64,000 nucleotides of DNA from Guptibacillus hwajinpoensis (GTDB lineage Bacteria; Bacillota; Bacilli; Bacillales; Guptibacillaceae): the NCBI RefSeq assembly GCF_020171785.1, contig NZ_JAIVAE010000003.1, positions 310,001-374,000 of the forward strand. The letters are read 5' to 3'. Shown here piece after piece: positions 32,265 through 36,389 of the stretch (position 1 is the first letter of the stretch; the number at the start of each line of letters is the position of its first letter). A program made the translations under genes and the position numbers. The notes under the pieces were generated by a model that made no database searches, was not told where the DNA came from, and was given only the letters and a program-made list of their open reading frames with translations.

Positions 32265-33539
32265 TTAATCCTCTTTGAAAGTTTCCGCATCAAACCTCAA
32301 AATTTCTTCTTCAAGATGGACGAGCGATGGGTCTAGCTTTAGAGCAAGTTTGAAGGCTTTCACTGCTTCTTCTCTTCTACCTTCTTCAATTAAGAAGGCA
32401 CCATATTCCTCTAGAAAAATTGGATCCTGTCTGAAATAAGTATATGCATTTTCATAGCGTTTTATGGCATCTTTATACTCTTCAACCTGTGCATAAGCTG
32501 TTGCCGCTGACCAATCAAGGTATGGATCACTTTGCTCTCCCTCTTCAATGTTTCGCAAGAGATCCAAAATATCTTCATATCGTTCCTCTGTCTTCAAATA
32601 GGCGGCTAGCGTTTTCGCAGCTTCTATATGCGCTGGATTAATGGCTAGTAATTCACGTAAATACTGTTCTCCGCTTGCATTATCGTGTGTTTTAAAGGTT
32701 AACCTACTAGCTTGTATATATAGCTCTTCATTAAATTCATCAAATTTAATTCCTTGGGCTAGTACCTCAATTGCTTCAGCTACCGCACCTTCTTTTTCAT
32801 AAGCTTTGGCAAGATAAGGATAAAGTGTACTATACTGGGGATCTAGTTCTTTTAGCTCATTAAACGCATTAATGGCTTTTCGGTATTCATTGATTTGAAG
32901 CGCCGTAAACCCATAACCAAACAGGGCGTTAATTTCACGCGCGTTCTCGAGTCCCTTCTCATAGTAAGTAAGCGCATCTTCAAATTGTCCACTCCCGCTC
33001 AATGCTTCAGCCAATCGAAGTTCAATATTTTCATTAGCAAGCTCTCCTTTGGTTCCAAGAACTGCTTCATAGTAAGGAACTGCCTTTAAATGATGACCTT
33101 GTGTTAAATAAAATTCACCAAGTCCAAAATCGATGATTGGTTCATCAGGCGAAAGTCGCTTTGCTTCCAGCAGTTTTTGCTCTGCAACTTCTTCCAATCC
33201 TTCCGTTTGGTAAAGATCGGCCAATAAGAGAAGGGCAGGTGGATATGCAGCATCATTTTCATCAATTTTATTTAAAGCAGCAATGGCATCCTGCTCTTGT
33301 TCAAGATCAACATAGCATTCCGCTGCCTGTACAAGTAATTCACCTTCATTTGGGTAATGAATAAGTAGCTCTTCTACGACGTCTCTAGAATCTTCAATAA
33401 GTCCAAGACTGTAGTAAATGTTGGAGAGATCATATAAGCTTTCATGATCAGCTTCTTTTCGTACTTCTTTTAGTTCTGTTAAACCTTTTTCAAAATTTCC
33501 CGACTCAATTAATGAGACAGCCTGTTTAAGACGATCCAC
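32265..33539 (-). CDS. ypiA: Tetratricopeptide repeat protein YpiA
   Basis: A 424-aa protein composed almost entirely of TPR units of about 34 residues from end to end, for example FEKGLTELKEVRKEADHESLYDL and the unit ending LKLDPSLVHLEEEIL. There is no signal peptide, so it should be a cytosolic scaffold. Partners are unknown. The start is GTG 33539 with AGAAGGAG 9 nt upstream. It pairs with reoY, 68 nt downstream. The 443 nt upstream hold a possible small RNA rather than a gene. Confidence 0.88.
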   Translation of the reverse strand: MDRLKQAVSLIESGNFEKGLTELKEVRKEADHESLYDLSNIYYSLGLIEDSRDVVEELLIHYPNEGELLVQAAECYVDLEQEQDAIAALNKIDENDAAYPPALLLLADLYQTEGLEEVAEQKLLEAKRLSPDEPIIDFGLGEFYLTQGHHLKAVPYYEAVLGTKGELANENIELRLAEALSGSGQFEDALTYYEKGLENAREINALFGYGFTALQINEYRKAINAFNELKELDPQYSTLYPYLAKAYEKEGAVAEAIEVLAQGIKFDEFNEELYIQASRLTFKTHDNASGEQYLRELLAINPAHIEAAKTLAAYLKTEERYEDILDLLRNIEEGEQSDPYLDWSAATAYAQVEEYKDAIKRYENAYTYFRQDPIFLEEYGAFLIEEGRREEAVKAFKLALKLDPSLVHLEEEILRFDAETFKED

Positions 33540-33783: not shown

Positions 33784-33874
33784 AAAAAAATTCCCTGTGC
33801 AGAAAGCGGTTGTTAACGCTTTCAAAACACAGGGACAAAATAAATATGGATAGGAGTGGAGAGAAACCATTACT
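33784..33874 (-). ncRNA. Candidate CcpA-linked small RNA
   Basis: A minus-strand unit of about 90 nt has its own promoter (33881-33908), no well-placed coding frame, and a strong terminator. The terminator has outer stem TCCCTGTG/CACAGGGA, inner stem GAAAGCG/CGCTTTC, then seven T. A perfect cre match lies inside. The single-stranded part contains a pyrimidine stretch (TTTCTCTCCACTCCTATCC) that could pair with ribosome binding sites. It may instead be an attenuated leader of ypiA, 240 nt downstream. Confidence 0.45.
33811..33824. promoter_or_regulatory. cre (CcpA operator) candidate
   Basis: TGAAAGCGTTAACA, read on the minus strand, matches TGWAANCGNTNWCA at every position. It lies about 50 nt after the predicted start of the candidate small RNA, where CcpA could act as a roadblock. 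Part of the motif is also one arm of the terminator hairpin, so chance cannot be excluded. Confidence 0.45.
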
Positions 33875-33880
33875 ACATTT

Positions 33881-33908
33881 AGTATAACAGGAAAAGATAT
33901 AAAATCAA
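33881..33908 (-). promoter_or_regulatory. Sigma-A-type promoter of the candidate small RNA
   Basis: TTGATT (33903-33908), a 16-nt spacer and TATACT (33881-33886) are read on the minus strand. An imperfect CodY-like sequence (three mismatches) overlaps the region just upstream. Confidence 0.5.
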
Positions 33909-33962: not shown

Positions 33963-33997
33963 AAAAAACAAAAAGCAGGTTCCTAGGAACCTGCTTT
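33963..33997 (-). terminator. Terminator of the aro-trp supraoperon
   Basis: On the minus strand AAAGCAGGTTCC and GGAACCTGCTTT form a 12-bp stem with a TA centre, followed by TTGTTTTTTTG. It includes the last codons and TAG stop of aroA. Confidence 0.92.
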
Positions 33998-35269
33998 AAG
34001 CTTCTTTAAATGGTCAAAGAAATCAGGATATGACACTTTGATAGCATCAGGTAATGCAAGCTCGACAGCGCCTTCCGTTATACATCCAGCGACAGCAAGC
34101 ATCATACCAATCCGATGATCGCCTAAACTTGAAACTTCCCCACCATGAAGAGGCGTAGGCCCTTCTATCACCATGCCGTCTGGTGTACCAGTAATCGAGG
34201 CCCCTAAAGTTTGCAAAGCTTCCACTACTGCATCTATGCGGTTCGTTTCTTTGACTTTTAATTCTTCAGCGTTGCGAATAATTGTCTTTCCATTCGCCTG
34301 GGTTGCAAGAAGCGCAATAATCGGCAACTCATCAATTAAGCGTGGAATGATATCTCCTTCAATAACTGTTTCACGAAGATTACTCGTACAAATTGTAAGA
34401 TCTGCTACTTCTTCTTGATTGACTACTCGTCTATTTTTAATCGATAATGCTGCACCCATTTGTTCAAGGACATCTAATATGCCAGATCTTGTTTCGTTAA
34501 TGCCCACATTTAATAAGGTTATTGTGCTGTTTGGAACGATTGCCCCCGCTACGAGGAAAAAGGCAGCTGAAGAAATATCTCCAGGTACTTCAACATTCGT
34601 AGCAGTTAGCTTTTGACCGCCTTCTACACTAACTGAAAGTCCATCTCTTTTAACTTTTACGCCAAAACTCTCCAGCATATTTTCGGTGTGATTTCTGGAG
34701 CGATGTGTTTCAGAAACAGTCGTAACTCCTTCAGCTTGTATACCAGCTAGAAGAATGCCTGATTTAACCTGAGCACTTGCGACAGGCGACTGATATGTAA
34801 TGCCTTTTAAATTGCCACCTCGGATTGAGATTGGTGCATATGTGCCCTGCTCTCTTCCATCAATAACAGCACCCATCTGTGATAAAGGAACTGTTACACG
34901 ATTCATCGGTCGTTTAGCAATTGACTCGTCTCCCGCTAAAACCGAGTGAAAAGGGCGACCCGCAAGTAATCCCATCATTAAACGAAAAGTAGTACCCGAA
35001 TTCCCTACATCGAGAAGCTGAGAAGGTTCCTTGAGTCCTTCAATTCCTTGCCCTTCTACAACAACAGATGCGCCATCTTGTTCAATACGAACCCCCATCT
35101 GTTTAAAACAGGAAATGGTACTTAAACAATCTGCTCCAGGAAGGAAGTTCGTAATCCGCGTTGTGCCATTAGCAATTGAACCAAACATGATCGCACGGTG
35201 GGATATAGATTTATCTCCAGGTATCACGACTGTTCCTTTAAGACTGTGCGCTTTCGTTATGGTTTCCAT
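33983..35269 (-). CDS. aroA: 3-phosphoshikimate 1-carboxyvinyltransferase (EPSP synthase)
   Basis: Sixth shikimate step, target of glyphosate. The 428-aa protein has [18 protein letters not shown] (N-terminal Lys), [17 protein letters not shown], the [13 protein letters not shown] segment, [14 protein letters not shown] and the C-terminal [15 protein letters not shown] 35269 follows GGAG at 9 nt and gives the same length as the B. subtilis enzyme (there named aroE). It is last in the trp-hisC-tyrA-aroA operon. Confidence 0.96.
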
Positions 35270-35282
35270 AGTTACGTTCTCC

Positions 35283-36389
35283 TTATTTATCATCTACATA
35301 TGTTTCAAAATCACAATCTAGGATTACTTTCGCATTATCACGGTCAGTTTCTGAGCGAAAGCTCACTCGAAGCACACCCATAATATCTTCTCGGGTTTCA
35401 ATGATTCGAATGTTTGTAATTGAAATTTCTTCCTTTGCGAGTTTTTGCGTAACAGCAGCGATTACACCGGGCTGATCCTGTACATCAAGGAACAAATCAT
35501 AAAAGGCCGGTATCGCTCCTCTTGAGCGAACAGGTAATCCATCACGAAAGTCTTTCGCGCCAGAAAAATAATTAAAAATACCGTCCTCATTTTCTTCTTT
35601 AATATAGCCCTGAATTCTATCTAATTCTAACTTCATGTCTTCTGTCATATGAAGTAGAACATCTTTGTTCCGCAACAGAATGTCACGCCACATCACAGGA
35701 CTAGCTGATGCGATACGCGTAATGTCTCGAAACCCTCCAGCTGCAAACCTTGCGACGTTAAAGCGCTGACTATCATTTCGATCACTAACAAAGTTCACAA
35801 GACTTGCAGCTAAAATATGCGGGAAATGACTAATTAATCCGACTAAATAATCATGTTCCTGTGCTTCAAGCTCAACAAAAGTAGCATTGGTAGAACTTAA
35901 AAGGTCCATTAAGTCGTGTAGTTTCGATCGATCGACAGCATCATCTGGTGTTAAAATATAAAAAGCATTCTCAAACAGGTGGGATTTTGCTGCTGTCACG
36001 CCCGTTTTGTGGGAACCAGCCATCGGATGCCCACCAATAAATGTTATAGAAGGATTAAGAATTTTCTTCGCATGACTTACGATCGAAAGTTTAGTACTCC
36101 CCACATCCGATACGATGACGCCATTCTTTAATTTTATTGAGGAAAGTTGTTCTAAGATTTGCTCCGTTTGCACGACAGGAGCTGCAATCATGATATAGTC
36201 TGCTTTTTGCACCGCTTCTTCAAGAGAAGAAGCGGTGTCATCTACGACACGAAGAGCTTTTGCAAGATCAAGCTGGTTTTGATTCACATCGAACCCTGTA
36301 ATCATGGCGTCCTGATGCCCTGCTTTAATGGCCAGAGCAATCGATCCCCCGATTAGTCCAAGACCGATGATTGCTACATTTTTACTCAT
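35283..36389 (-). CDS. tyrA: Prephenate dehydrogenase with ACT domain
   Basis: Oxidative decarboxylation of prephenate to 4-hydroxyphenylpyruvate for tyrosine. The 368-aa protein has the Rossmann motif [40 protein letters not shown] with a catalytic His, and [10 protein letters not shown]. An ACT domain (about 300-365, [23 protein letters not shown]) suggests feedback control by tyrosine. ATG 36389 overlaps the hisC stop. Confidence 0.95.

Follow-up and report, generated by a model that had tools for sequence, protein, structure and literature searches.

The window analyzed here is a 64,000-nt stretch of the Guptibacillus hwajinpoensis genome in which aroA (33983-35293) and a gene for a TPR protein (32265-33539), which we take to be ypiA, are separated by a gap of 443 nt. 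Both products, EPSP synthase and the TPR protein, were recognized from their protein sequences. An original prediction had placed a complete minus-strand transcription unit at 33784-33908 within this gap, and its coordinates, strand, and description all hold. The promoter it specified, TTGATT-16-TATACT read on the minus strand, is composed of a -35 element TTGATT (33903-33908), whose TTG is invariant in 41 of 41 aligned loci, a 16-nt spacer, and a -10 element TATACT (33881-33886) carrying an extended -10 TG. The predicted small RNA of about 92 nt would occupy 33784-33875 of the minus strand, with a 5' end placed to within 3 nt by the promoter and a 3' end at the T run.

Close to the 5' end lies a near-invariant block of 24 nt, ATGGTTTCTCTCCACTCCTATCCA (33847-33870, minus strand), which is the putative target-pairing region. 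The two-tier terminator with seven T that had been described is also present, as a minus-strand hairpin at 33835-33792 followed by T residues at 33790-33784. Inside this hairpin, the sequence TGAAAGCGTTAACA (33824-33811, minus strand) fits the cre consensus, TGNAARCGNWWWCA, at every position, which bears out the claim of a perfect cre match and makes this site a candidate CcpA operator. Just upstream of the -35 element on the same strand is a CodY-like box, AATTTTCTAAAGAAT (33926-33912), with three mismatches to the consensus. A sequence scan also revealed that aroA ends in a terminator-like hairpin of its own (33972-33997, minus strand), which separates the small RNA gene from the operon, and 244 nt lie between the small RNA terminator and ypiA.

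A fold of -26.7 kcal/mol (z = -5.99) is predicted for the segment 33875-33782, and all 200 shuffled sequences were less stable. The hairpin at 33835-33792 was not among the calls of a simple terminator scan; the size of its loop and the pair of A residues ahead of the T run are the probable reasons. Promoter-like sites alone occur at a chance level, with six in the region versus 4.0 expected (sd 2.3), and the case for the unit therefore rests on conservation. On that basis, the unit at 33784-33908 has the appearance of a stand-alone gene for a small RNA, transcribed from a putative sigma-A promoter. The prediction of a small RNA unit thus stands, but its scope had been underrated: the unit is not restricted to this gap, and its CU-rich stretch is a near-invariant core.

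Conservation and genomic setting among the Bacilli

A BLAST search with a 151-nt region matched 29 of 101 genomes, its own included, and 14 of 65 genera. In 28 of the matching loci (its own locus and a site at galT excluded), 26 letters, ATGGTTTCTCTCCACTCCTATCCATA, are identical and lie shortly 3' of the promoter; reading these same loci revealed a variable linker after ATGGTTTCTCTCCACTCCTATCCATA and then a hairpin with a T run. This search did not demand the block, and it recovered the block unchanged from other families. An exact 20-nt pattern search in named genomes found at least 118 stretches. Among the matches listed are Paenibacillus (including P. polymyxa), Cohnella, Fontibacillus, Brevibacillus, Aneurinibacillus, Thermoactinomyces, Laceyella, Melghirimyces, Fictibacillus, Shouchella, Halalkalibacter, Alteribacillus, Marinococcus, and Geomicrobium. 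Because these 118 loci were found by the exact pattern, the invariance of those 20 letters among them was imposed. The ATGG that precedes these letters in 142 of 142 loci was not imposed by the search, and neither were the BLAST and model matches.

A model built from the sequence alone of the promoter and block matched 149 of 398 genomes in a sample of the class at E<=1e-5 (the weak end of these matches was read in part), representing 29 families, and 189 of 398 at E<=0.01. In a sample of the order, 58 of 299 genomes matched at E<=1e-5 and 69 of 299 in all. The matches weaker than 1e-4 that were read in the order sample (G061, G607, G555, G671, G512, G513, G027, G371, and G077) have 8-11 mismatches to the block. 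They do not look like the small RNA, G607 being the nearest to a doubtful case; counts were therefore taken at E<=1e-5. In divergent members most of GGTTTCTCTCCACTCC is retained; the changes fall chiefly at its edges, and a few members differ inside it.

A set of 147 loci was compared, 142 of them distinct. A promoter just upstream of the block is present in 141 of the 142 distinct loci versus 109 of 1352 control positions, the one miss (L141) being masked at the promoter position. A terminator likewise follows in 141 of 142, at 52-90 nt from where the block begins, versus 72 of 659 controls, and here the one miss (L131) is a locus that runs off its sequence stretch. Loss of the promoter and hairpin in relatives had been named beforehand as a result that would count against the unit, and each is kept almost without exception. 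By sequence, then, these loci carry the own promoter and own terminator that are generally expected of a trans-acting small RNA. The terminator sequences differ between lineages, and the block is predicted to be mostly unpaired (mean probability 0.72, minimum 0.54; 141 loci). Some genomes carry second copies of the small RNA elsewhere, for example at L258 and L274 (genomes G357 and G323), each with its own promoter and a short terminator. No copy was found in the plasmids or in the viral contigs that were searched.

In 133 of the 147 loci, an aromatic-operon gene, by our own reading of ORF clusters as HisC, TyrA, or AroA, is found within the two nearest ORFs on one side. This shared neighborhood indicates that most carriers possess one orthologous, free-standing gene. 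The unit points in the operon direction in 110 loci and is inverted in place in 23 (L023, L050, L092, L113, and 19 others), which include both Bacillaceae and Paenibacillus; nine loci were judged by the other flank alone and five have neither. Such inversion argues against a piece of a 3' UTR or a leader. Many Bacillaceae have ypiA on the far flank; in many Paenibacillaceae the gene there is, by sequence reading, one for an ECF sigma factor. Many Bacillaceae (L010-L017 and others) also have an ORF of about 300 amino acids (our cluster 6) in the interval from the small RNA to ypiA; this ORF is absent from the species of the window and its nearest kin.

Sites resembling cre accompany the unit nearly everywhere. 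Between positions -80 and +120 of the block, a cre with at most one mismatch is present in 137 of 147 loci versus 65 of 4455 background windows, which are the other 200-nt windows of the same 147 loci, and a perfect cre is present in 98 of 147 versus 2 of 4455. The excess at one mismatch is about sixtyfold among loci that include near relatives and so are not independent. The position of the site varies: in 76 of the 147 loci it occurs in the promoter region only, and in 55 only downstream from the block, where it usually falls within the terminator hairpin. The ten loci without a cre within one mismatch (L031, L033, L039, L044, L066, L088, L112, L127, L138, and the masked L141) include both of those from Aneurinibacillus and five that were read as Thermoactinomycetaceae.

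The original prediction also noted the imperfect CodY-like site upstream, which finds modest support across the loci. A box with three or fewer mismatches lies upstream of the -35 element in 30 of 141 loci versus 1.0% of mononucleotide shuffles, and the loci that carry it are mainly Bacillaceae and in part near relatives. These observations lend modest support to the possibility that CodY controls the small RNA.

Complementarity to aroG, galT, and other gene starts

The genes followed across genera as possible targets were aroG, galT, and a cggR-like gene, along with ccpA. The lead to aroG, the name used here for the gene encoding a bifunctional chorismate mutase/DAHP synthase, came from a complementary match at the start of this gene in Brevibacillus parabrevis. 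When pairing energies were compared with a background of 799 gene starts, the aroG start ranked within the best 5% in 17 of 26 carriers (among them the genome that suggested aroG and two of its congeners) and outside it in nine, versus 1 of 29 non-carriers within it (Fisher p = 8.8e-7; Mann-Whitney p = 1.9e-7). Non-carriers were genomes of the order without a model match, of which 30 were searched and 29 had aroG; their mean energy of -14.2 equals the background level. The longest perfect pairing has a median of 8 in carriers versus 5 in non-carriers. Pairing of aroG with the anti-Shine-Dalgarno sequence did not differ between the two groups (p = 0.35), and the complementarity in carriers is therefore not due to stronger ribosome binding sites.

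Carriers and non-carriers belong to different families, and shared ancestry is therefore a partial confounder of this comparison. The contrast persists when family means are used (15 versus 25, p = 1.3e-5), with families assigned from database codes for some genomes and by our own grouping of genus names for the named ones. Genomes without a match over the chorismate mutase end (4 of 30 carriers, 3 of 30 divergent genomes, and 1 of 30 non-carriers) were left out of the aroG counts, as were second aroG copies. The four carriers concerned, from Paenibacillus and Cohnella, yielded only another type of DAHP synthase, and one of the four has a good site, which would bring the total to 18 of 30. In the genome of the window itself, the RNA and the aroG leader form 14 consecutive pairs, GATAGGAGTGGAGA, ending 4 nt before the start codon.

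Among genomes with divergent forms of the RNA, aroG falls within the best 5% in 7 of 27 and outside it in 20. No overall compensatory change between the RNA and aroG was detected in 24 divergent genomes (mean of -17.7 for each genome's own pair and -17.1 for swapped RNAs); in two genomes of one genus, G432 and G483, the fit is better with their own RNA than with swapped ones. An accessible conserved seed complementary to a conserved target, another general mark of trans-acting small RNAs, is thus present, although not in most of the divergent members. From sequence comparisons of this kind, aroG is probably the target, being the best supported of the conserved ones, and the small RNA would switch off the first enzyme of the aromatic pathway. 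The next gene downstream from aroG is ccpA, recognized by its conserved N-terminal motif, in 21 of the 26 carriers. The ccpA start, scored in the same way as aroG, is complementary to the small RNA in 0 of 21. In the genome of the window, a terminator-like hairpin lies directly 3' of aroG and the gap to ccpA is 337 nt.

In this same genome, the second-best match of the small RNA is the antisense of the galT start, whose gene belongs to the family of UDP-glucose-hexose-1-phosphate uridylyltransferases. Within the genus, galT is present in 12 of 14 genomes and its start is complementary in all 12, with energies of -28.8 to -41.1 kcal/mol that lie beyond all 799 background gene starts (minimum -25.4); in seven of the 12, the pairing extends over 23 pairs with one mismatch. 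Second galT copies, found in four genomes of the genus, are not complementary (-11 to -14). In other genera, some with uncertain start codons, galT is within the best 5% in 0 of 9 genomes. The start of hom, encoding homoserine dehydrogenase, scores -30.4 kcal/mol in the two genomes read, one of them that of the window. The complementarity at aroG and galT starts supports the proposal that the pyrimidine-rich part of the RNA is able to pair with ribosome binding sites.

Other gene starts gave narrower results. The start of the cggR-like gene is complementary in some Paenibacillus (L333, L337, and L357) and may be a lineage-specific target. As a general target this gene was rejected, for it reached the best 5% in 1 of 29 genomes, with one more exactly at the line; its name reflects our own reading of it as a glycolytic regulator, and its NCBIfam matches are to regulators, below threshold. 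In genome G016, a start read as carA (L187, near 1223) is complementary to the block with three mismatches in 18. Long complementary sites are little enriched genome-wide, with 93 non-self sites versus 69 for the reversed pattern in 30 genomes, and of the 80 non-self sites that were read, 14 could be ribosome binding sites. In a complementarity search of 15 genomes, one run recurred in many copies per genome and was for that reason taken to be rRNA.

Relation to known small RNAs

No small RNA had been known at this locus when the unit was first proposed, and no Rfam 15 family matches it at the gathering threshold, either in the window or in 18 carrier loci. A scan of the aroA-ypiA gap with E values up to 10 returned only matches below the family thresholds. 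The single Rfam match at threshold in the whole window is a pan motif RNA (RF01749; 18991-19073, minus strand, 69.4 bits). In the open-licence literature, we found no report of the block sequence or of a small RNA and CcpA in connection with DAHP synthase, and nothing relevant on CcpA-linked small RNAs in Paenibacillus, Brevibacillus, or Thermoactinomyces or on aromatic amino acids. A study of P. riograndensis reports 27 small RNAs, of which three carry names from Rfam and the rest have no assigned function (PMC5670726). The present small RNA may be among them.

The closest parallel is RsaI, or RsaOG (RF01775), of Staphylococcus aureus. This RNA is reported to be repressed by CcpA when glucose is plentiful and to pair with Shine-Dalgarno sequences to block translation (PMC9266662, PMC8216469), and to have two G-rich regions that bind RsaE and to be conserved in Staphylococcus and not in Bacilli (PMC8216469). 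The RNA described here carries a conserved cre-like site, through which CcpA may control it, and shares with RsaI a C-rich region complementary to target Shine-Dalgarno sequences, although the targets differ (aroG and galT rather than glcU_2 and fn3K). Unlike RsaI, it has no single-stranded region rich in G (the transcript's one GGG lies in the terminator stem), and its CU block lies at the very 5' end. The RsaOG model had no match at the gathering threshold in the window or in the 18 carrier loci.

RosA of Bacillus subtilis is described as a stand-alone RNA of about 225 nt with a sigma-A promoter, repressed by CcpA, that has three G-rich regions and no C-rich regions and serves as a sponge of RoxS and FsrA (PMC8216469). 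The present RNA differs from that description in being about 90 nt long and CU-rich and in matching messenger RNAs, and, by reading, its sequence does not show the RosA combination of G-rich regions complementary to RoxS and FsrA with no C-rich region. Our RNA may work like RsaI, and RsaI and RosA are its nearest analogues in control; by the tests made, they are not its relatives.

The remaining comparisons are more distant. SR1 of B. subtilis is reported to be made when glycolysis is low and to pair with ahrC, a messenger of amino acid metabolism, while being mainly controlled by CcpN, 205 nt long, and also encoding a small protein (PMC8464778). Its model (RF02376) has no match at the gathering threshold in the window or the 18 loci; one hit on the opposite strand scored 12.8 bits, where the threshold is 45. 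The C-rich regions of RoxS/RsaE and FsrA are reported to pair with target messengers (PMC8216469), under control by Rex/ResD or Fur (PMC8464778), and the RsaE seed is given as UCCCC (PMC9217828), which is absent from the block of our RNA. Neither RoxS/RsaE nor FsrA has an Rfam match at threshold in the window or the 18 carrier loci.

Proposed function and its alternatives

The original prediction likened the unit to Gram-positive small RNAs of carbon control. This likeness is supported by the conserved promoter, block, and terminator, by the cre-like sites, and by the complementarity to ribosome binding sites, all of which argue for a base-pairing small RNA under putative CcpA control. Building on this anatomy, conservation, cre association, and specific complementarity, which are directly visible in the genomes, we consider it likely that an independent gene encodes a trans-acting RNA of about 90 nt that would be transcribed under CcpA control and would repress aroG, and in this genus galT and hom as well. 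The direction of control and the physiology outlined below are inferred from the biology of CcpA.

As long as a preferred sugar is available, CcpA together with HPr-Ser-P would occupy cre and shut off synthesis of the small RNA. In the window it would do so as a roadblock within the short transcribed stretch, and in Paenibacillaceae by covering the promoter. Once the sugar is exhausted, CcpA would leave cre and the RNA would be made. Its largely unpaired 5' block would then pair with ribosome binding sites containing GGAGUGGAG-like sequence and block their translation. The enzyme encoded by aroG consumes phosphoenolpyruvate and erythrose-4-phosphate at the entry to aromatic synthesis. Covering the aroG ribosome binding site would lower AroG synthesis and thereby spare phosphoenolpyruvate when glycolysis is slow. 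In this genus galT would be added as a target, and in at least two genomes hom.

Among the alternatives, we see some chance, well short of an even one, that the RNA is real and controlled by CcpA and that its main role lies elsewhere. Its principal partners would then be numerous ribosome binding sites, some other RNA, or a protein, and aroG would be a minor or lineage-specific target. The block is conserved over all 24 nt, which is more than pairing with aroG requires, most divergent members (20 of 27) lack an outstanding aroG site, and other partners are suggested by the galT and hom sites and by the cggR-like gene in some Paenibacillus. Against this, aroG stands out from ccpA (0/21), the cggR-like gene (1/29), and galT outside the genus (0/9) under the same scoring, and its complementarity tracks the presence of the small RNA. 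It is rather unlikely that cre is not repressive here, either because CcpA activates or because the terminator stem merely gives rise to a cre-like sequence. The site in the window does sit in that stem and cre is itself partly self-complementary, but 76 of 147 loci have it solely in the promoter region, apart from the hairpin and where repression is expected. A slightly more doubtful proposal is a feedback loop in which the RNA represses an aroG-ccpA transcript and hence its own repressor. The order of the two genes in 21 of 26 carriers would suit it; the ccpA start itself, however, lacks complementarity in all 21, and the terminator-like hairpin after aroG, with its 337-nt gap, makes a loop through ccpA unlikely in the genome of the window.

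Two further readings concern the unit's immediate surroundings and its coding potential, and we give both very little credence. A cis-acting leader or attenuator of ypiA would be compatible with a terminator upstream of that gene on the same strand, but the gene downstream from the unit varies between lineages, the orientation of the unit is reversed in place in 23 of 147 loci, and its terminator is 244 nt from ypiA. A leaderless small protein beginning at the ATG of the block (MVSLHSYP...) would account for the ATG in 142 of 142 loci and for the lack of a stop codon inside the block. The reading frames from this ATG, however, range from 8 to about 100 codons, twelve of the peptides have no similarity after the block, several divergent members lack the ATG, and there is scant room for a ribosome binding site between the promoter and the ATG.

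A trans-acting, CcpA-controlled RNA that represses aroG therefore remains our preferred explanation. We also favor, with somewhat less assurance, the broader view that this RNA is older than the families of the class Bacilli and connects entry into the shikimate pathway with carbon catabolite control. At least one common target, aroG, would have preserved the 24-nt block. Meanwhile, the CcpA operator would have moved between promoter and terminator, terminators would have been replaced, the gene would have been inverted in place, and lineages would have added targets of their own, such as galT here.

To our knowledge, most Gram-positive small RNAs do not extend beyond a genus or family. If our interpretation is correct, an RNA that Rfam 15 lacks and whose block is matched in 29 families of one class would rank with the best conserved base-pairing RNAs of these bacteria. 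The shifting cre would constitute a natural experiment in which an operator has been relocated with its control retained. Because Paenibacillus polymyxa, Brevibacillus, Cohnella, and Fictibacillus carry the small RNA, these proposals can be tested in tractable strains, and strains used for the production of aromatic compounds could be affected. Most broadly, amino acid synthesis in these bacteria would come under RNA-mediated carbon control.
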